64,000 nucleotides of DNA from Chryseomicrobium sp. FSL W7-1435 (GCF_038595005.1 NZ_CP151997.1:1116001-1180000); one strand, 5' to 3'; shown: positions 2,199 to 24,829, numbered from the stretch's first letter. Made by a program: numbers and translations. The notes: generated from the letters alone by a model not told the origin.

Positions 2199-2322
2199 GT
2201 TGAGTGGAGTGTAGGGGTTGACTCCAGTGGGATCAAAAGTCGGAATGTGAGACCCCGCAGGAGCCTGCGACGAGGAGGCTCACAGCGCGCCCACGGAACG
2301 CAGCCCCGGAACGGAACTCAAC
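2199..2322 (+). repeat. interspersed palindromic repeat, copy 1 (plus orientation)
   Basis: 124-bp element beginning GTTGAGTGGAGTGTAGGGG and ending GGAACGGAACTCAAC, so its ends are complementary (GTTGAG/CTCAAC). Inside, GTGAG pairs with CTCAC and CGCAGG with CCTGCG, which suggests a branched hairpin RNA or DNA structure. Other copies lie at 10827-10949, 14498-14734, 42889-43487, 44893-45015 and 48491-48615. This copy lies between the convergent genes nifS and the CdiI-like gene and is followed 6 bp later by a terminator-like hairpin. Confidence 0.9.
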
Positions 2323-2398: not shown

Positions 2399-2833
2399 TT
2401 ATGTCGTGATTCTATTTAAAAACTCTAACGCATATAAATAATCTTTTTTCTCCACGTCATTCTTCCAAATAAAAGTTTCCGCAATACGAAATGTTCGCAT
2501 CATCACCAAAAACTCTTTCATTGAATTATGGATTTCAGGATTCTCTATCCAAAAATTAATCGGGATGTCTAAAGCCACTGTTTGAAGTAGTTGTCCATCG
2601 TACGTAGCACCAATTACCGGATTTTTGTAGAGACGATGCAAGCTCTCAGGCAAAAGAAATTCTGTTAGCACCTGCAATTGAATTAGTCGACACAAGTCGT
2701 GAGTAGATAGATGACAAATTTGTTGATGTTCAATTGACTTGAACCAGAATTCGACATAATCAGTTGAAAGCAGGGAAGAAGGGACTGTACTTGAGTCGTG
2801 CTGAAGATCATACAACGTATACGTTCTGTGCAT
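2399..2833 (-). CDS. CdiI-like contact-dependent inhibition immunity protein (orphan)
   Basis: 144-aa protein. The segment STHDLCRLIQLQ...LPESLHRLYKNP...GATYDGQLLQTV...INFWIENPEI resembles the immunity family that follows contact-dependent growth inhibition toxins in Firmicutes (pattern: DLCRLI, then an L..NP..G..YDG.LL block, then FW). Members neutralise a cognate toxin tip in the cytoplasm. No toxin, WXG/LXG or polymorphic-toxin gene is visible nearby, so it would be an orphan immunity gene. The start is ATG 2831-2833, eight bases after GGAGG; the frame is open further upstream from a TTG that overlaps the ribosome binding site. Family assignment is from remembered motif patterns and is moderately certain. 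Confidence 0.55.
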   Translation of the reverse strand: MHRTYTLYDLQHDSSTVPSSLLSTDYVEFWFKSIEHQQICHLSTHDLCRLIQLQVLTEFLLPESLHRLYKNPVIGATYDGQLLQTVALDIPINFWIENPEIHNSMKEFLVMMRTFRIAETFIWKNDVEKKDYLYALEFLNRITT

Positions 2834-2968
2834 CGTACATTCCTCCAAAATCTATTCAATTGATGAATCACTCTCGCAATGTATTCAGTTTTCCCAAAAT
2901 GATTGAAAAATAAACAAAACTAATTCAAAGTACAATTTACCGAATGAAGAATAGTGATTTAAGAGCAT

Positions 2969-3040
2969 AAAGTACTAATAAAATAAAAAAATTTTTAAAA
3001 ATAAATTGAAAATTAATTTATAATAATGCAAAAAGTACTA
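2969..3040 (+). promoter_or_regulatory. AT-rich upstream region with AAAGTACTA direct repeats
   Basis: The AT-rich leader before the exopolysaccharide cluster has AAAGTACTA at 2969-2977 and again at 3032-3040, 63 bp apart, each with the palindromic core AGTACT and followed by A/T-rich TRTAAAA-like sequence. A TATAAT hexamer lies between them at 3019-3024. I infer a promoter region with possible regulator sites; no clear -35 was found. Confidence 0.3.
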
Positions 3041-3107: not shown

Positions 3108-3938
3108 ATGGGGAAAAAAATATTTTGGGCGGACGAGGCGGAATCAGTCTTTTCTTTGTTACAAGGAGCCCTGGAGCGCAACAAATCGCCAATTGCTGTT
3201 ATTTCTATCTCTCCGTTGGATGGTCTAGCTAAGATTCAAGATGATGAAATAATTTCCTTTATTCGTAATTCTGATCTAGTGTTTCATGACCCAGAAAAAG
3301 ACGGTTGGTGGGCTGTTTTGCCGAATAGTGGCAAACGAGAAGTTATAGCTTTTTTAAAGAGACTTGAGAAGCACTTTGAAGTAGATGAACACGCGCAATA
3401 TCGCGTATTGTTCACAGAAGTACGTGACCCTGAAGTGAAGCTTTTAACAATTGTTAAAGCGTTTAAAAGTCATACTCCTTCATTAGAAGCTAATAAAGCG
3501 GAATTTGTAGATGGAGAATGGGTGAAAGGGGTAAAAAGTACTATTCGCGTTAGTCTTATCGTGAATGAACCGATAGTAATGGAAGTACTCAAACGCTCCA
3601 TCACTACCATGAAACTTTCCAACTTTGATTTAGACTTACAAACTTATGGAGACGGTTTGGCCTTTGAAACATCTGAGTGGTACACAAGTGCACACACGCA
3701 TTTAGTTATCTTGGATGATGTGCTTCCTAAGAAAAATGGCATTGAAATTGTCCATTTTTTGCGCAATCTACCAAGCAATCAGAAGTTTCATATCTTCATG
3801 TTGACGGATCGAGTCTCAGAAGAAAATTTAATCAATGCGTATCAAATGGGGATTGATGAAGTCATTCAAAAACCTTTTAATCTAAGGTTGTTTGAAGCAT
3901 TGTTTCGCAGAACAATTGAGAGGTTGTGGTTTGAATGA
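3108..3938 (+). CDS. degenerate GGDEF-like / receiver domain regulatory protein of the exopolysaccharide cluster
   Basis: 276-aa cytoplasmic protein without a membrane segment. The first about 120 residues look like a collapsed GGDEF fold: a hydrophobic IAVISIS strand, a helix, then SDLVFHDPEKDGWWAVLP where R.GGDEF.VLLP would be; the signature itself is gone. Residues about 148-270 form a receiver domain with phospho-acceptor Asp203 (LDDVLPKKNG), the conserved Thr in FMLTDR and Lys255 (QKPF), but the N-terminal acidic pair is Asn-Glu instead of Asp-Asp. ATG 3108 lies eight bases after GGAAGG; GTG 3051 is less likely. It overlaps the HEAT gene by 4 bp. By analogy with Bacillus YdaK, a degenerate GGDEF receptor in an exopolysaccharide operon, it may sense c-di-GMP and control the synthase. 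That role is inferred. Confidence 0.65.
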   Translation: MGKKIFWADEAESVFSLLQGALERNKSPIAVISISPLDGLAKIQDDEIISFIRNSDLVFHDPEKDGWWAVLPNSGKREVIAFLKRLEKHFEVDEHAQYRVLFTEVRDPEVKLLTIVKAFKSHTPSLEANKAEFVDGEWVKGVKSTIRVSLIVNEPIVMEVLKRSITTMKLSNFDLDLQTYGDGLAFETSEWYTSAHTHLVILDDVLPKKNGIEIVHFLRNLPSNQKFHIFMLTDRVSEENLINAYQMGIDEVIQKPFNLRLFEALFRRTIERLWFE

Positions 3939-4984
3939 CGGTTTCAAGCATAACACTTTTATGGATCATTCTCACACTACTCGTGCTACTTCTTCTATTT
4001 AGCGTATATTTAACAATTCTGAGGTTACTTGAGAAAAGAAGGTTGCAACGAGAAGAATCTTACCTCTCACGAACTAAAGAGCATTGGATGAGCTATCTGT
4101 TTTATAACGGGAATTGGGACGCTACTCTAATTCCACAAGATTCCCATGAAATGAGAGCTGCTGAAAGACTTCTTGTGAAGCTTTTAAATAGTGTATATGT
4201 CGAAGGTACGCGACAAAAAATATACTTGTTTGTAAATGAGTATATGGAGTCTTACTACAGAAAAATGCTTTCAAGTCCTGAGTGGAGTCACCGCATGAAC
4301 GGGTTGTATCGAACGATAGATTTTCAGTTGGTGGCATTAGGGGAATCGCATCTCGCTAAATGGTCAACTAAAAAAACACGTACTATAGAAGAAACTTATT
4401 ATTTAGCGCTATTAAAAATAATGGTAGGGAAAACAACCGCACTTCAATTGATCAAAGAGTCTACTCATGAGTTCTCTGAGTATCAGAACCGGGCACTGCT
4501 ATTAAAACTAGATAACCGCCAACTTCAAGAATTAGTTGAGAATTATAGTTATCTAACACGTGCTGCTAAACTAGCTTTAATCGATGTTATTGGAGAAAAA
4601 AATCATATTATTTATCAAGATTTTTTACTTCAGCAATTGAGTAGTGAAGAAGAGTCGGAAATTCGGATTCGTATTCTAAAATCTTTGGAATTAATCGGCT
4701 TCCTACAAGATTATTCAGCTATCACGGTTTTTTTAGATTCTCCTCATTGGGAAGAGCGAATGCTGGCTACTCGTTTGATTGGTAGTTTCCCACTTCAACA
4801 AAGTGGTCATTACTTATTGCCGATGCTCGAGGATAGTAGCTGGTGGGTGCGATCAACAGCTGCTCGATCAGTAGCTAAACAGAAAACTGGCGTAGAATTA
4901 TTACTGAATTTTAAAGAACGTACAACCGATCGTTTTGCAATGGAAATAATTGACGAGCAACTCTTGAAGGGGGTAATCGCATGA
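3935..4984 (+). CDS. membrane-anchored HEAT-repeat protein
   Basis: 349-aa protein with one N-terminal transmembrane helix (about residues 6-30, very Leu-rich) followed by a basic stretch (LEKRRLQR), so the rest probably lies in the cytoplasm. The C-terminal third has HEAT-like helical pairs, for example IRIRILKSLELIGF, EERMLATRLIGSF and WWVRSTAARSVAKQ. HEAT proteins are scaffolds. Placed between a regulatory receiver protein and a GT2 synthase, and overlapping each by 4 bp (ATGA), it may couple the regulator to the synthase. No enzymatic motif is seen. HEAT assignment is moderately sure; the role is inferred. Confidence 0.7.
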   Translation: MTVSSITLLWIILTLLVLLLLFSVYLTILRLLEKRRLQREESYLSRTKEHWMSYLFYNGNWDATLIPQDSHEMRAAERLLVKLLNSVYVEGTRQKIYLFVNEYMESYYRKMLSSPEWSHRMNGLYRTIDFQLVALGESHLAKWSTKKTRTIEETYYLALLKIMVGKTTALQLIKESTHEFSEYQNRALLLKLDNRQLQELVENYSYLTRAAKLALIDVIGEKNHIIYQDFLLQQLSSEEESEIRIRILKSLELIGFLQDYSAITVFLDSPHWEERMLATRLIGSFPLQQSGHYLLPMLEDSSWWVRSTAARSVAKQKTGVELLLNFKERTTDRFAMEIIDEQLLKGVIA

Positions 4985-6405
4985 CAGCTGTCTGGGAAGC
5001 AATATTAATTTTCTTTGGGCGCTTTCTAATTTTTTATATGATTGGTGTCATCGTTATCTACACTTTTATGTTGCTCATGTCATTACTGAAATTAAGAAAA
5101 GAGTACCAGTTAGATAAAGAAGAACTGGATGATGACTTTCTCTCCAGTTATTATTCAAAACCGGTCTCAATCCTAGTGCCAGCATTTAATGAAGAAAAAG
5201 GTGTAGTGGATAGCGTGAGATCGCTACTCAGCTTGCGCTATCCCCAATTCGAAATAATTGTTATCAATGATGGATCTACAGACTTAACAAAAGAAACCAT
5301 GATAACTTACTTTGCTATGAAAAAAATGAACAAAGTCATTCGACGTCAATTAGAGAGTGAAGAAATTGAAGCCGTTTATCAATCCTCCATTCACCCCAAC
5401 CTCCTTTTGGTAGACAAAGTAAATGGAGGAAAGGCAGATGCCCTAAATGCTGGTATTAACGTTTCACGCTTTCCGTATATCTGTTCAATCGATGGGGATT
5501 CCATCCTTGAGGAGCGTTCATTGTTACGTATTATGAAACCGATTGTTGGTTCAAACGGTCAAGTAATAGCAGCAGGAGGAAATGTGCGGATCGCCAATGG
5601 CCTTTTCGTGGAACACGGTTCCATCTCGAGTCCTGCGTTACCTAATAACTTGATTGTTGTTATGCAGGCCGTGGAGTATTTACGAGCATTCCTAATGGGC
5701 AGAATTGCACTCAGTCAGTTCAATCTAGTGTTAATTATTTCAGGGGCATTCTCTGTATTTTCTAAGGCCTGGGTGATTCGTGCAGGTGGCTATGCCAAAA
5801 ATACAATTGGAGAAGACATGGAGCTGGTCGTAAGGCTGCACCGTATACTAGCAGAGAGTAAAGAGAAGAAACGAATTGAATTTGTTCCAGACCCAGTGTG
5901 TTGGACAGAAGTTCCTTCTAAGTTATCTGTTCTACGAACGCAACGCAGAAGGTGGCATCAAGGATTAACGGAAAGTCTTTGGCGGCATAAGCGTATGACG
6001 TTCAACCCAAAATACGGAGCTGTAGGTATGGTGTCGATGCCGTACTTTTGGCTAGTGGAATTTTTAGGACCGATTATTGAAATCGGTGGATACATTTATC
6101 TGGTCTTCGCTTTGTTTGCTGGAGAGGTGTATATCGAAATAGCTATTTTACTTGCACTGCTCCTGATCTTATACGGAAGTGTTTTCTCAATGGGGTCTGT
6201 TTTAATGGAAGCGTGGAGTGTAAACCGCTATCCGAGGATTCGAGATATTTATCGCTTACTAATTATGGCTTTGACTGAAATCTTCTGGTATCGTCCTCTT
6301 ACATTGCTATGGCGAGTAGAAGGGTTAGTGCGCACTTTGTTCCGAAAAAGGGAATGGGGCAAAATGGAACGTACTGGCTTTCAAAAGAAGGAGATGACAC
6401 CATGA
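4981..6405 (+). CDS. processive family 2 glycosyltransferase (PgaC/BcsA-like polysaccharide synthase)
   Basis: 474-aa membrane synthase. One transmembrane helix (about 10-35) precedes a GT-A domain with SILVPAFNEEKGV, VINDGSTD, GGKADALNAG, the metal-binding CSIDGDS, the catalytic-base region GEDMELVVRLH and the processive signature QRRRWHQGL. Two or three further helices follow near the C-terminus. The full D, DxD, ED, QxxRW set marks an enzyme that polymerises a sugar nucleotide and translocates the chain, as in poly-GlcNAc or cellulose synthases. The sugar cannot be told from sequence. It overlaps the HEAT gene and the next gene by 4 bp each, so the four genes form one operon. Confidence 0.88.
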   Translation: MTAVWEAILIFFGRFLIFYMIGVIVIYTFMLLMSLLKLRKEYQLDKEELDDDFLSSYYSKPVSILVPAFNEEKGVVDSVRSLLSLRYPQFEIIVINDGSTDLTKETMITYFAMKKMNKVIRRQLESEEIEAVYQSSIHPNLLLVDKVNGGKADALNAGINVSRFPYICSIDGDSILEERSLLRIMKPIVGSNGQVIAAGGNVRIANGLFVEHGSISSPALPNNLIVVMQAVEYLRAFLMGRIALSQFNLVLIISGAFSVFSKAWVIRAGGYAKNTIGEDMELVVRLHRILAESKEKKRIEFVPDPVCWTEVPSKLSVLRTQRRRWHQGLTESLWRHKRMTFNPKYGAVGMVSMPYFWLVEFLGPIIEIGGYIYLVFALFAGEVYIEIAILLALLLILYGSVFSMGSVLMEAWSVNRYPRIRDIYRLLIMALTEIFWYRPLTLLWRVEGLVRTLFRKREWGKMERTGFQKKEMTP

Positions 6406-9320
6406 ACCGATTCTTGATTGTCGTTCTTGTAGTGGCGGGCGTATTTGGCCTGCCCTATTTGCTTTGGGTGACATCGCCTAATTCTTCTGTAACTGCTTCA
6501 GAGAGTGTTCAACAAGATTTAGATGAGTTTGAAGGGATTAACTGGTTTTTCCAACACAATAAGTTATCAGATGCTCAAGATGCAACTGTTGAATTAGATG
6601 TGTTATCAGGTTCTTTTTCACAAGCAGAGTGGGATGCTGCTAGCGTTGCTAATGAACGCAATAAATTATTGTTGGTTCAACCGCTTGAGTGGTTAGCTAT
6701 TCAAAATGAATTGTTAACGCGAGAAATAGAAGATTTTACTGGTGTTCGATCTACAGGGTGGATGATGCATTATTTTGAGGATCTTTCGAATTCAAATCCC
6801 GATATTCCGAAATCCACTAAGGCTTTAGTGGAGGGGGAGTGGGATTTTCAGGGCTCAGGCTACGTGTTTACCAATGAAAGACTTGAAAAAACAGTCGTCC
6901 TAGAATCCACTGAAGTTTACGAACAAGGTACTACTGATCAATGGCAAGAGAGTAATTATCGAGGCTGGATCCAGCTGCTAACTGTTCCCATTGAAGAGGA
7001 TGTGACGTTTTGGTTCAAACTACCGCAATCTGTAAGCGAAAAAGCGCCTACTACTTTAGCGGATGGGATGATACCAGGTGTCGTTGAACGCTCCCATCCT
7101 AAAGTACATGCAGTCTATATGGCAGGTGACTATCAACAATTAGAATCACCACCTGCACTTTATCAAGTGTTTGGTCTATCAACTGTCTATGATTTCTTTT
7201 ATGAAAATCGAAAAGATGGCTTTTATTGGTCGTTTTTTGCAAGTCGATTAGATGATTTTGTTTCTGACGCTGAAAATCTTCCGGGTTATCCCGAGCGACA
7301 GAACGAGGAGCTAGTTCATCATTCGCGGGTGCAGGGCAATGAGTTTGAAGTGCAAGTAAACGGAGAGTGGGAAAAGCTTACTGTGAAAGGTGTCAATATA
7401 GGTATGGGGAAACCGGGCTTTTTCCCTGGTGAAGCAGCTATAACAGAAGAAGAGTATTATCGCTGGTTTCAACAAATAGGAGAGATGAATGCCAATACAA
7501 TTCGGGTCTATACTGTTCACCCACCTGGCTTTTATCGTGCTTTAAAACGATACAATGAGGAGCATGAAACGCCGCTCTATGTTTTTCACGGGGCTTGGAC
7601 AGAAGAAGAATTGCTTGAAGAAACACAAAATGCTTTTAACGAAGAAACTGTGAAGCGATTTGAAAAAGAGTATAAAGACATTGTTGATATCATTCACGGA
7701 AATGCACGCGTTCTTCCACAGGTTGGCCATGCCTCTGGTACATATGAAACAGATATATCTGAGTATGTGATAGGGTGGATTATCGGTATTGAATGGTATC
7801 CAGAGATGGTCGTAGGGACAAATGAAGAAAACAAAGATGTAGGCCAATATAGAGGGCGCTTTGTAGAAACTGACCAATCGTCACCCTTTGAACATTGGTT
7901 AGCAGAACATATGGATGGTATTTTGACATATGAATATGAAAATTATAACGAACTCCGACCTATCAGCTTTACCAATTGGGTCACAACGGATTTGCTTGAA
8001 CATCCTTCAGAACCTAATGTGGATGAGGACTTAGTTAGCGTAAATCCAAATGTCATCTCGCTAACAGATGAAATGACTTCGATAGGCCAATTTGCATCGT
8101 ATCACGTCTATCCTTATTATCCAGACTTTTTAAATGTGGACAAAACCTATTTGGAATACGTGGATCAAGACGGTGAAAAAAACAGTTATGCGGGGTACTT
8201 GAATGAATTGAAAGCGGCGCATGACATGCCAGTATTAATCGCTGAATTTGGCATACCTGCTTCAAGGGGCGGAACTCATGTGAATCCCTATGGCTGGAAC
8301 CAGGGGAATGTAACCGAAGAACAGCAGGGGGAAATCGTATCAAAGTTATTCCGAACAATCGTAGCTGAAGACTATTTGGGAGGCCTCGTTTTTAGTTGGC
8401 AGGATGAATGGTTTAAGCGAACATGGAATACTCAAGAGTACGATAATCGTGAACGTCGCCCTTATTGGTCAAATCGACAAACCAACGAGCAAAATTTTGG
8501 ACTGCTTAGCTTTGACTCGATGAAAATAAAAATTGACGGAGAATTCTCGGATTGGGACGAATCTGCGCTAGTGGAGAGTTCGAATCTATCCCTTTACGTC
8601 ACACATGATGAGACAAATCTGTACTTGCGAGTTGAAGGAGTCCAGGATTCAGACAAGGCTAAAATTGTAATGGATACTATTCCTGAGCAAGGAAACAGTG
8701 CGATTGAAGGCCTCAACGAGAGTACGTTTAATGAAGGGATCGACTTCGTAGTTGATATTGATGGAGCGGATACACGGTTACTCGTTGACAGTTACTATGA
8801 TTATTACCATTTCCTTTATGGCAATGAAGAGAATATGATTGAACCCGTATCAACCGGCAAAAAAAATTCAGGTGAATTTACACCTATTTATTACGTGCTG
8901 AACAAAGAGCTTTATTATCCAGAGCTTGATAGAGTAGATCCATTCCAATTCTATGAAACTGGGAAATTACGCCGAGGGAATGGTAATCCAGAGTCTATGG
9001 ACTACGATTCGTTAGCGGATTATGAATACGGTGAAAATGCAGTGGAGATACGTATTCCGTGGCTGTTGCTCCAATTCCGAGACCCGAGTCGATTAGAAGT
9101 CATTGGCGATGTCTTTAAAGATGGAGAGACCGCTAGTAAATTTATAGAATCAATTGGACTGGGGCTTATCGTTGATGATGAACTAGTCGCTAGTAATGGA
9201 AGTGGGCAAGTGGCGTCATTGCAACGGTATACATGGGAGAGTTGGAATTCACCGACGTTCCAAGAACGGTTAAAACCATCCTATTATATTTTGCAAGAAA
9301 CCTTCTCTGAATCAAATTAA
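6402..9320 (+). CDS. large exported glycoside-hydrolase-like protein of the exopolysaccharide cluster
   Basis: 972-aa protein with an N-terminal membrane anchor or signal (FLIVVLVVAGVFGLPYLLW). The N-terminal third has no family I recognise. A TIM-barrel glycosidase-like domain follows (NTIRVYTVHPPGFYRAL), with candidate catalytic acids in VIGWIIGIEWYPE and PVLIAEFGIP; the latter resembles clan GH-A nucleophile strands (GH2/GH5). The C-terminal part (IDGEFSDWDESAL ... NLYLRVEG) resembles a CBM9/DOMON-type beta-sandwich. ATG 6402 overlaps the synthase stop (ATGA) and follows AAGGAG; the frame is open upstream from 6309 inside the synthase gene. It probably trims, binds or modifies the polymer outside the membrane, comparable in position to YdaJ-type or PgaB-type partners. 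Confidence 0.72.
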   Translation: MNRFLIVVLVVAGVFGLPYLLWVTSPNSSVTASESVQQDLDEFEGINWFFQHNKLSDAQDATVELDVLSGSFSQAEWDAASVANERNKLLLVQPLEWLAIQNELLTREIEDFTGVRSTGWMMHYFEDLSNSNPDIPKSTKALVEGEWDFQGSGYVFTNERLEKTVVLESTEVYEQGTTDQWQESNYRGWIQLLTVPIEEDVTFWFKLPQSVSEKAPTTLADGMIPGVVERSHPKVHAVYMAGDYQQLESPPALYQVFGLSTVYDFFYENRKDGFYWSFFASRLDDFVSDAENLPGYPERQNEELVHHSRVQGNEFEVQVNGEWEKLTVKGVNIGMGKPGFFPGEAAITEEEYYRWFQQIGEMNANTIRVYTVHPPGFYRALKRYNEEHETPLYVFHGAWTEEELLEETQNAFNEETVKRFEKEYKDIVDIIHGNARVLPQVGHASGTYETDISEYVIGWIIGIEWYPEMVVGTNEENKDVGQYRGRFVETDQSSPFEHWLAEHMDGILTYEYENYNELRPISFTNWVTTDLLEHPSEPNVDEDLVSVNPNVISLTDEMTSIGQFASYHVYPYYPDFLNVDKTYLEYVDQDGEKNSYAGYLNELKAAHDMPVLIAEFGIPASRGGTHVNPYGWNQGNVTEEQQGEIVSKLFRTIVAEDYLGGLVFSWQDEWFKRTWNTQEYDNRERRPYWSNRQTNEQNFGLLSFDSMKIKIDGEFSDWDESALVESSNLSLYVTHDETNLYLRVEGVQDSDKAKIVMDTIPEQGNSAIEGLNESTFNEGIDFVVDIDGADTRLLVDSYYDYYHFLYGNEENMIEPVSTGKKNSGEFTPIYYVLNKELYYPELDRVDPFQFYETGKLRRGNGNPESMDYDSLADYEYGENAVEIRIPWLLLQFRDPSRLEVIGDVFKDGETASKFIESIGLGLIVDDELVASNGSGQVASLQRYTWESWNSPTFQERLKPSYYILQETFSESN

Positions 9321-9462
9321 TTTGATGAAACCTCAAAAAGGTATACAATAGATTTATAACATATTTTGGGCGAAACTAGTTTTTTGTACCTATATTAATT
9401 TTGGTGCTGCCATTGTTTAATTAGGTATATAAGTGCTAGTTTTTTTAAAGGGGGAATGTGAC

Positions 9463-10743
9463 ATGCTTAGACAGTTGAAAAATGAGAGTGGTTACACATT
9501 GTTGATTACGCTTGGTCTCATTTTGATGCTTATGCTATTTATGTTCTCCTTCACACGAATTGCGGTATCACAAAAAGTTCAAGTGGAGAAAACTGACTCT
9601 ACATTAGTAACGACTGCCCTTGCTGAGATGGGCGCAGAGTATTATAAAGAGCAAATTATTGCTGAAGTAAATGCCTTAATAAATGATACTTCAATTAAAA
9701 TGGACGGCATTAAGAGTACGGCAACTAGTTACTCAGATTTAACTTCAAAAATGAATCAATTAGCAAATACACAAAATACCAATCTACTAACTTATTATAC
9801 TAGTAATCAGTACTTTGAAACGGATGCTACACCAGAGTCCTTACGTACAGCTAATACAACTTTTGTAGAAAATCCAGGAATTGGGTATCGTTTGATAGAG
9901 CGTTCTACTTTAGACATCACGACATCAACACTCTCCTTAAAAGTTGTGGGATTCACACCTCAAGAGGTGAGTGAACCGATTGAAATTTTCCTGACTTTGC
10001 CTAAACAACTCATGTGGCAGGGGGATAAGACCGAAACCTTCACTGCAACCTACTCATTTGAAGAATACGCAGATTTACCAAACGAGAAAACCATTGTTAT
10101 AAACGATCCCAATTCAATTGGATCTAGCACGTATACGTTTCAACAAGAGCACTTTTATCATTTTGTAAGTGGTGCTTTGTTTGATAAACAGCAATTTGGA
10201 ACGGACGGCAGCTTAGTGAAAGTAAATGTTCTTTCAGGTGCACCATTGGAATTTGACAAGCATTTTCAAGTTTTAGATTCTAATCTTATTACTACCACTC
10301 TTACTTTAGATTTCAACTCAAATTCCCAAACGGAAATTGTGAATTCGCATATTATTGCTAATAAAATTACCATTACCAAAGGCGATGTTGTAATGGAGAA
10401 TGTTGACCCTAATAATAATTCACAAAAAGTCGACTTCACAAATGCATCAACAATCTGCTTGAAACCGAGTGATTCGGTGACCGCTGATGCCTATGACAAG
10501 AATGTTGTGAATTTAAAAAAGGTACTTCTCTATAGCGGAGACTCTAAATTAGTCTACAAGAAAAGTAATGGATTGTATTATTATTTCACTGGAAGTAACG
10601 AGTTTGTTATTCCATCTCCTCAGCTAGATAACGCTATTTATAAAGAAGCGTGTATGATTACGATGACAGCTCAGGAACAAAAGACTGTTTTTGAAGCGTA
10701 TGATCCAAACAATATGAGATTAAGTGATGTCATTTATCAATAA
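9463..10743 (+). CDS. PilX-like pseudopilin / membrane-anchored surface protein
   Basis: 426-aa protein beginning MLRQLKNESGYTLLITLGLIL. A short basic leader, a Gly at a possible prepilin cleavage site, then a hydrophobic helix of about 25 residues is the class III signal layout, although the usual Glu at mature position 5 is missing, as in PilX-like minor pilins. The rest is Asn/Thr/Ser-rich and likely beta-structured outside the cell; it has only two Cys and no recognised domain. ATG 9463 has an AAAGGGGG site eight bases upstream. It follows the glycosidase gene after 142 bp and may share its transcript. No prepilin peptidase or pilus ATPase gene is nearby. Function unknown. Confidence 0.6.
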   Translation: MLRQLKNESGYTLLITLGLILMLMLFMFSFTRIAVSQKVQVEKTDSTLVTTALAEMGAEYYKEQIIAEVNALINDTSIKMDGIKSTATSYSDLTSKMNQLANTQNTNLLTYYTSNQYFETDATPESLRTANTTFVENPGIGYRLIERSTLDITTSTLSLKVVGFTPQEVSEPIEIFLTLPKQLMWQGDKTETFTATYSFEEYADLPNEKTIVINDPNSIGSSTYTFQQEHFYHFVSGALFDKQQFGTDGSLVKVNVLSGAPLEFDKHFQVLDSNLITTTLTLDFNSNSQTEIVNSHIIANKITITKGDVVMENVDPNNNSQKVDFTNASTICLKPSDSVTADAYDKNVVNLKKVLLYSGDSKLVYKKSNGLYYYFTGSNEFVIPSPQLDNAIYKEACMITMTAQEQKTVFEAYDPNNMRLSDVIYQ

Positions 10744-23525: not shown

Positions 23526-24829
23526 TTTGTAAATAGTTGAAAACCAACACCGGATTTTTCTTTAATTTCATAGAGTGCATGGTCAGCTTCTTTTAAAAGT
23601 TGATTTTTGTTAAGTGCCGTTCCAGGGAATGCGGAGGCGCCGATGCCAAGTTTAATTTGAATTTCTTTATTTTTGTAGATAAAGGGCTGTTTAAATTCTG
23701 CCAATATACGATTCGCTACTTCATGAATCACTTCATTACTTTTTATCTGAGGTACAAGCACAGCGAATTCGTCCCCGCCAAAACGTGCGACTAAATCGTT
23801 GTCTCGAAGAACTCTTTGAATACGAGAAGCTGCCTCTTTAATCACAGCATCACCAGCGTCATGTCCATAGGTATCGTTAATTGATTTAAATTTGTAGCCA
23901 TCTAATAGAAATACTGCCAAACGTTCAGTCGTTCCGACCGTCTGTTGAAGTAGATAATCCAATTTATCATCAAAGGCTCGTCTGTTTGGAAGACCTGATA
24001 AATGGTCAATAAATGCCATGCGCTGCAACTCATTTTGGAGGTTGGTCTCAATCGTTGCATCACTTAGTAGCGCATACCAGCCTTGTTGATTATTTTCTAC
24101 ATAAATAGGAATAAATTTAAGTTTAATATATTGTCTATCACTGGTATTTTTTCGAGTTACCCAAAGTTCATGACGCGCACTTTGCTGGGGGAAATGGGAA
24201 TCTGAGAACCACTCCGTAAAAAATGTTTCTTGAAACCATTCGGCTAACAAAGTATTTTGAATTTCACTTGAAGTGGAGTTCAAAAATTCTTTTGCCTCGG
24301 GATTACATTTCACGATAAGCCCCTCATTATCTACTTGAAAGATGGCTTCGTTATTATATTCTATAAGAGATTCTAAGCGTAGTCGTTCATCGTCCAGTTG
24401 TTTCTGTGCGGCTTGTAAATCACGCAAAGCTTGTTCATGATCTGTAATATCACGGACGATAGCTAAAATAAAATGAAGATTGTGTTTTTCCATATAGATA
24501 GGAGTTAAAAGACTCTCTCCGATAATTTGTTTTCCACGGTGCTCGATGGGAGCTACATACCGCACTTTTTCTAAAGTAGTACGGGCTTTGTCATAGTGGG
24601 CTCGTAGGTTGCCATATGCATCTTCTGACACAATACTCTTTAATGATACATGGCGAAGTGTAGAGGGCAGGTTGACAGTGTCCTTTGCTGCTTGATTGGC
24701 ATAGACGTACTCATAGTCTTTTCCGTTGTAGCTCATCACAAACACTAGATCGTCGATTTGGTTAAAGGTTTGAATCAATAAAGAAAGAAAATCACTACCT
24801 AATTCTTCAAATATCTCTTTAATTCGCAT
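23522..24829 (-). CDS. PAS-PAS-GGDEF diguanylate cyclase
   Basis: 435-aa cytoplasmic enzyme predicted to make c-di-GMP from two GTP. Two PAS domains (about 15-130 and 145-260) sense an unknown signal. The GGDEF domain (about 268-435) has DHLSGLPNRRAF, an intact FGGDEF near residue 350, the Mg-binding Asp of LLDGYKFKSIND and an inhibitory I-site RDND five residues before GGDEF, so it should be active and product-inhibited. The second Asp of the usual DxD in that strand is Tyr, a small deviation. It ends in the shared terminator with the small membrane protein. It may supply c-di-GMP to the exopolysaccharide cluster at 3-10 kb. Confidence 0.9.
   Translation of the reverse strand: MRIKEIFEELGSDFLSLLIQTFNQIDDLVFVMSYNGKDYEYVYANQAAKDTVNLPSTLRHVSLKSIVSEDAYGNLRAHYDKARTTLEKVRYVAPIEHRGKQIIGESLLTPIYMEKHNLHFILAIVRDITDHEQALRDLQAAQKQLDDERLRLESLIEYNNEAIFQVDNEGLIVKCNPEAKEFLNSTSSEIQNTLLAEWFQETFFTEWFSDSHFPQQSARHELWVTRKNTSDRQYIKLKFIPIYVENNQQGWYALLSDATIETNLQNELQRMAFIDHLSGLPNRRAFDDKLDYLLQQTVGTTERLAVFLLDGYKFKSINDTYGHDAGDAVIKEAASRIQRVLRDNDLVARFGGDEFAVLVPQIKSNEVIHEVANRILAEFKQPFIYKNKEIQIKLGIGASAFPGTALNKNQLLKEADHALYEIKEKSGVGFQLFTK

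Follow-up and report, generated by a model that had tools for sequence, protein, structure and literature searches.

A HEAT-anchored exopolysaccharide operon of Bacillota whose GGDEF protein may have passed from cyclase to c-di-GMP receptor

The change of a product-inhibition site into a receptor site is usually argued from distant paralogues. In Gram-positive bacteria the logic of such receptors is already known from PelD, YdaK and PssE, and to our knowledge the operons of the latter two, ydaJKLMN and pssA-E, contain neither a receiver nor a HEAT protein. PopA of Caulobacter, a degenerate relative of PleD, acts in cell-cycle control and not in an exopolysaccharide operon. In Bacillus cereus PelD, each of the mutations of R363, D366 and R395 abolishes adherence (PMC7112168), and c-di-GMP binding has been shown for YdaK of B. 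subtilis ydaJKLMN and for PssE of Listeria pssA-E (PMC7064775; PMC4125290), YdaK being a protein with four transmembrane helices (PMC7064775). The Gram-positive cellulose synthase operon ccsZABHI of clostridia includes a hydrolase of clan GH-A, the GH5 enzyme CcsZ (PMC7710045). The four genes presented here, A to D, belong to an apparently undescribed operon of Bacillota for the making of a sugar polymer. They lie in the window, by which we mean the whole stretch of 64,000 nucleotides that was analysed (bases 1,116,001-1,180,000 of the 2.71-Mb single-contig genome of Chryseomicrobium sp. FSL W7-1435), together with the following features:

2995-3024, plus strand: candidate sigma-A promoter, TTAAAA-18-TATAAT, 10/12; weak, precedes A
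3108-3938, plus strand: A, degenerate GGDEF domain (residues ~1-140) and pseudo-receiver (~144-276)
3935-4984, plus strand: B, N-terminal transmembrane helix 6-24, then HEAT repeats predicted to be cytoplasmic
4981-6405, plus strand: C, processive GT2 synthase, PgaC/IcaA-like, with transmembrane segments at both ends
6402-9320, plus strand: D, membrane-anchored or exported; D1 (~1-300), clan GH-A barrel and beta-rich tail (D2)
9433-10743, start probably ATG 9463: PilX-like ORF, ~140 bp past D

The junctions A/B, B/C and C/D are all ATGA overlaps of 4 bp; the reading frames and overlaps described for A-D in the original prediction stand, and the four genes are read as a synthase-dependent exopolysaccharide operon. 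Shuffled sequence contains matches of this promoter type at least as often, which makes the candidate in front of A a weak one. The PilX-like pseudopilin had been counted among the members of the system; in the compared loci it is found downstream of D only in the closest relative (the L035 and L087 records) and in no other member of the genus or beyond, and a gene limited to the nearest relative is not core and falls outside the system. Several neighbouring elements can be recorded in their own right. An orphan CDI-immunity-like protein (window 2399-2848, minus strand; Pfam CdiI_3, 51.5 bits) adjoins the operon and is kept in L035, an intergenic repeat GAGACCCCGCAGGAGC at window 2249-2264, followed by a GAGGAGGCTCACAGCGCGCCC stretch, has 35 copies in the genome with at most one mismatch (reversed control of the GAGACCCCGCAGGAGC repeat, 0 copies), and an intact GGDEF protein (window 23555-24016, minus strand; 459-aa open frame, E 3e-46) is encoded ~14 kb downstream of the operon.

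The A-D genes form a conserved operon across Bacillota and are not the oddity of a single genome. Searches with B found the operon in 57 of 121 genomes of the family, and the B profile matched in 129 of 261 genomes of the order; at class level there were matches in 94 of 398 genomes, the weakest spanning only part of B. Most fetched loci have A-B-C-D in the same order and on the same strand, and this order is kept across the family as well as in further families of Bacilli, a recurrence in dozens of genomes which argues against chance. At least 565 relatives of C were found in the genome collection; the best 80 of these include a few MAGs of Clostridia, the rest coming from Bacillaceae, Caryophanaceae, Anoxybacillaceae and other groups, and the nearest named relative among them is Chryseomicrobium aureum (93%). 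Identity to the window proteins is 49-93% for C, which evolves slowest, 41-74% for D, and ~20-72% for the fast-evolving A and B. Second or solitary HEAT paralogues with no synthase gene of their own were seen at L055 8518-9552, L064 6913-7950 and L070 7335-8372, each preceding the same set of genes (449/179/222/464 aa).

The synthase C contains D97, D171-x-D173, E278-D279 and QRRRW 321-325, the named residues being invariant in 27 homologues, and the full D/DxD/ED/QRRRW set of the original prediction is thereby confirmed. With D, DxD, ED, QxxRW and membrane helices it has the make-up of a processive GT2 enzyme, which would polymerise a sugar and push the product through the membrane. Its best family is PgaC/IcaA TIGR03937 (1e-37), at 130.1 bits against an equivalog cut-off of 422.3, a score so far below the cut-off that it does not make the polymer poly-GlcNAc. 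The protein encoded before it, B, matches Pfam HEAT_2 (9.5e-12), and hydropathy gives one transmembrane helix (residues 6-24) and a basic stretch ahead of the HEAT repeats, an arrangement from which the repeats should be cytoplasmic; B would thus anchor a HEAT solenoid beside C. The idea that the HEAT protein stands in place of a co-polymerase is a reasonable, putative assignment.

Protein D carries a hydrophobic anchor at its N-terminus, and its TIM barrel matches GH157, GH2 and GH5 enzymes, the best VIA-align match of its model being to GH157 (Z 29.1, 309 residues, rmsd 2.7). The catalytic Glu residues of clan GH-A occupy barrel strands 4 and 7; in D, strand 4 is closely followed by E464, and E615 stands where strand 7 ends, and both are invariant in 22 homologues, in agreement with the GH-A-like motifs noticed originally. 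For GH113 (Pfam PF22612) D scores 19.9 bits, below the gathering cut-off of 27, and a PDB profile search with D gave no matches. The tail (~720-957) is beta-rich in the model, on which ground a CBM9/DOMON-like tail is plausible; no family or fold match specific to this region was found for CBM9/DOMON. D can be divided into an N-terminal part of ~370 residues and a GH-A part of ~690, each of which is a gene of its own in some genomes, and the N-terminal part looks like an independent module. In the window's genus D is shorter at the N-terminus (window 6402-7300), where a stretch of this module present in most other genera is absent. At L049, L050, L053, L054, L056 and L068 a 350-373-aa relative of the D N-terminus lies near or just before A, and full D lies elsewhere nearby or was not seen. 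Outside the cell, D would trim or rearrange the polymer.

Among PDB sequences, PleD gives the best match to the A profile. That the N-terminus of A has a GGDEF fold, as originally proposed, is supported by intact GGDEF domains in same-locus homologues, by profile matches exceeding those of shuffles and by model topology. A profile made from degenerate forms only matches the cyclase GGDEF domain of the same operon slot with an hhalign probability of 99.1, and it scores 43.4 against the host's intact GGDEF domains, compared with a maximum of 19.3 over 30 column shuffles. The model of A (mean pLDDT 89.9) has an alpha/beta topology that fits a GGDEF domain without the substrate helix; Foldseek and VIA-align matches of this model all fell on the receiver half and none on the GGDEF half. 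All five GGDEF positions are missing in A, and across 43 non-redundant degenerate forms, which are related sequences and hence not independent, the GGDEF motif and the metal Asp are found in 0/43 each and the stretch with the substrate helix is deleted. Lacking the GG[DE]EF signature and the metal Asp, A lies outside the active diguanylate cyclases. Cyclases with altered motifs do exist, AGDEF in VCA0965 being an example (PMC3974145), but with the five positions, the metal Asp and the substrate-residue helix all gone there is hardly any chance that A has retained diguanylate cyclase activity by means of an atypical active site.

Judged by its sequence, A would be a c-di-GMP enzyme that has lost its active site yet keeps the pocket by which it could sense the messenger. 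Its residues R53, D56 and R85 align by sequence profile with R359, D362 and R390 of PleD, which we take to be the residues forming the inhibitory c-di-GMP site of that protein. Among the 43 degenerate forms they are kept in 43/43, 40/43 and 43/43, respectively, R53 and R85 being the sole invariant columns of a domain with a mean column conservation of 0.39, and R85 is thus more constant in the dead forms than its equivalent in the cyclases (24/34). Of eight additional GGDEF-less forms, taken from other families of Bacilli, six likewise keep RxxD and the second Arg. Conversion of the site into a sensor would lead one to expect such a pattern; a domain serving just as a spacer would not. A shows the sequence features of I-site receptors, namely a GGDEF fold, loss of the catalytic motif and metal Asp, and retention of RxxD with the distal Arg; since few residues of the domain are as well conserved as those of the I-site, the case for a receptor is stronger than in the original prediction. 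RxxN replaces RxxD in three genomes of one genus, all of which retain c-di-GMP enzymes; GGDEF and EAL proteins are present in 30/30 genomes checked, these three included, so a comparison with enzyme-less genomes cannot discriminate. The host genome itself has 21 GGDEF and 11 EAL matches.

R24, E78 and E104 of A are highly conserved too, and part of the conservation of the domain may for that reason be structural. The dead GGDEF could then be only a structural or dimerisation module, with A as a scaffold whose receiver alone activates the synthase via B. The receiver is indeed the most constant part of A, receiver-only proteins precede B in some loci (L144, L147, L153, L160; some Neobacillus loci and Lacicoccus), and the three RxxN forms exist; we nevertheless consider this explanation doubtful, as a structural role predicts neither two invariant columns at the Arg residues contacting c-di-GMP nor the retention of these Arg in separate degenerate lineages. 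The genomes with receiver-only forms also encode GGDEF proteins, and other lineages have no A at all, which implies that the machine does not everywhere depend on A to sense c-di-GMP.

In the receiver half of A, D203, T233 and K255 are kept and the acidic pair is replaced by V152-N153, much as first reported for Asp203 and Lys255, so that A lacks the full residue set of phosphorylatable response regulators. Throughout the window's genus the Asp is kept and the Mg-binding acidic pair lost (V-N, V-D, V-G). The cyclase forms have acidic pair, phospho-Asp, Thr and Lys in 34/34, compared with the degenerate forms, in which the phospho-Asp is Asn in 37/43. With the pair lost in the genus and Asn in most degenerate forms, phosphorylation of the receiver is unlikely here. 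From its constancy we infer that this half may serve as a docking module for B.

The A slot has a different occupant in another genus of the same family (g7) and in most Bacillaceae loci fetched, namely an intact HPt-REC-GGDEF(GGEEF)-REC protein of 530-570 aa, as in L060 and L061 (GGDEF E 7e-43 and 1e-43). This cyclase form is typically followed by genes for a receiver standing alone (118-130 aa) and a hybrid histidine kinase (~960 aa), and a complete phosphorelay may feed the cyclase in these loci. In L060 (9302-9658) and L061 (8944-9300) the stand-alone receiver, and then a kinase-like gene of ~950 aa, come directly after the synthase. Both genes are present in 33 of 40 cyclase-type loci, as against a receiver in 0/57 and a kinase in 3/57 of the degenerate type, counts which include near relatives and in which kinases were called by length and H-box string. 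The original prediction had suggested that A integrates c-di-GMP and phosphorylation, which would require a distant kinase to phosphorylate Asp203 and gate the synthase jointly with c-di-GMP. D203, T233 and K255 of the window protein, the retention of E-D, Asp, Thr and Lys in L038 of a related genus, and the kinase and stand-alone receiver at cyclase-type loci all speak for such a scheme, whereas the V-N pair of the window protein, the Asn of 37/43 degenerate forms and the lack of both partners at 54/57 degenerate-type loci make it improbable. The cyclase-type system may well integrate the two signals, and the window's system probably does not; what stands of the earlier reading is that, as in the case of YdaK, a degenerate, receptor-like GGDEF protein belongs to the operon of a polymer synthase.

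HPt, first receiver, kinase and GGDEF motif have all been lost in the window's clade. In the tree of C the degenerate forms lie on one side of a supported branch, and intermediates from Evansella and Halalkalibacter (REC-GGDEF*-REC, motif absent) are found at the base of the degenerate group; a wider tree requires five separate changes, at least three of them forced by well-supported branches. The trees are unrooted, and the direction from enzyme to non-enzyme is taken from the fact that a lost GGDEF site is hardly regainable. We lean towards a history in which, within a HEAT-anchored synthase system found Bacillota-wide, a resident phosphorelay-driven cyclase was converted in place, and repeatedly, to a c-di-GMP receptor, losing catalytic and phosphorylation sites while its inhibitory site was fixed, with the Evansella and Halalkalibacter proteins as surviving intermediates. 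It is very improbable that the operon is instead decaying and that the lost active sites of A mark a loss of function of the whole system. The cyclase, kinase and receiver parts have been lost and D is shortened at the N-terminus in the window's genus, as decay would have it, but within the genus the C sequences are still 90-93% identical, with no catalytic motif missing, D retains both catalytic Glu, and the ATGA coupling and open frames are intact.

The reading that we prefer, with a probability of roughly 0.7, is that A acts as an I-site c-di-GMP receptor, docked on B through its unphosphorylated receiver, and switches on C. The host's cyclases would set the level of c-di-GMP, and messenger made by these other cyclases would bind the retained I-site of A (R53, D56, R85), which might then change shape as YdaK does (PMC7064775). 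Held on B through the pseudo-receiver, which would serve as a protein interface and not as a phosphorylation target, A would release the synthase via the HEAT protein. If this is true, a widespread c-di-GMP-controlled polysaccharide machine is added in Bacillus, Lysinibacillus, Sporosarcina, Anoxybacillus and others, and the HEAT protein is a new kind of synthase partner. Because enzyme, intermediate and receptor are alternatives at a single position of an otherwise conserved operon, each step is open to testing by exchange, and the survival of the working enzyme in relatives makes the change from enzyme to sensor accessible to study.

Several described systems share parts of this arrangement. 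As in the Pel systems of B. cereus and Pseudomonas, a degenerate GGDEF with RxxD and an Arg at +32 would govern a synthase post-translationally, and the system includes a glycoside hydrolase (PMC7112168); the spacing of the I-site in A (+3, +32) is that of R363/D366/R395 of B. cereus PelD (PMC7112168). PelD, however, has a GAF domain and works at the membrane with PelE, PelF and PelG, whereas A is predicted to be soluble and is fused to a receiver, and the window's system has a HEAT anchor and a PgaC-type membrane GT2 synthase. No PelF or PelG genes were found among the operon genes or their near neighbours, and the operon is thus not a Pel operon. PopA and PleD of Caulobacter likewise combine a GGDEF domain bearing an I-site with receiver domains, in the reverse of the domain order of A, where GGDEF comes first. 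YdaK and PssE are, as A appears to be, degenerate GGDEF I-site receptors, and both are essential for their exopolysaccharide operons (PMC7064775; PMC4125290); YdaK differs from the predicted soluble A in its four membrane helices. The poly-GlcNAc synthases PgaC and IcaA have the same motif set as C, next to which no deacetylase gene of the PgaB/IcaB kind was found. The ccsZABHI operon resembles the window's in that both are Gram-positive and pair a synthase with a hydrolase of clan GH-A; the description of ccsZABHI mentions neither a HEAT protein nor a GGDEF receptor (PMC7710045). Among open-access papers we found none joining HEAT, diguanylate cyclase, glycosyltransferase and exopolysaccharide, and no description of the operon, of the HEAT partner or of an alternation of cyclase and receptor in one slot. 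Judged on this literature, the combination of HEAT, GT2 and GH-A proteins in one machine and the series from cyclase to receptor appear to be new, alongside a receptor logic shared with PelD, YdaK and PssE.
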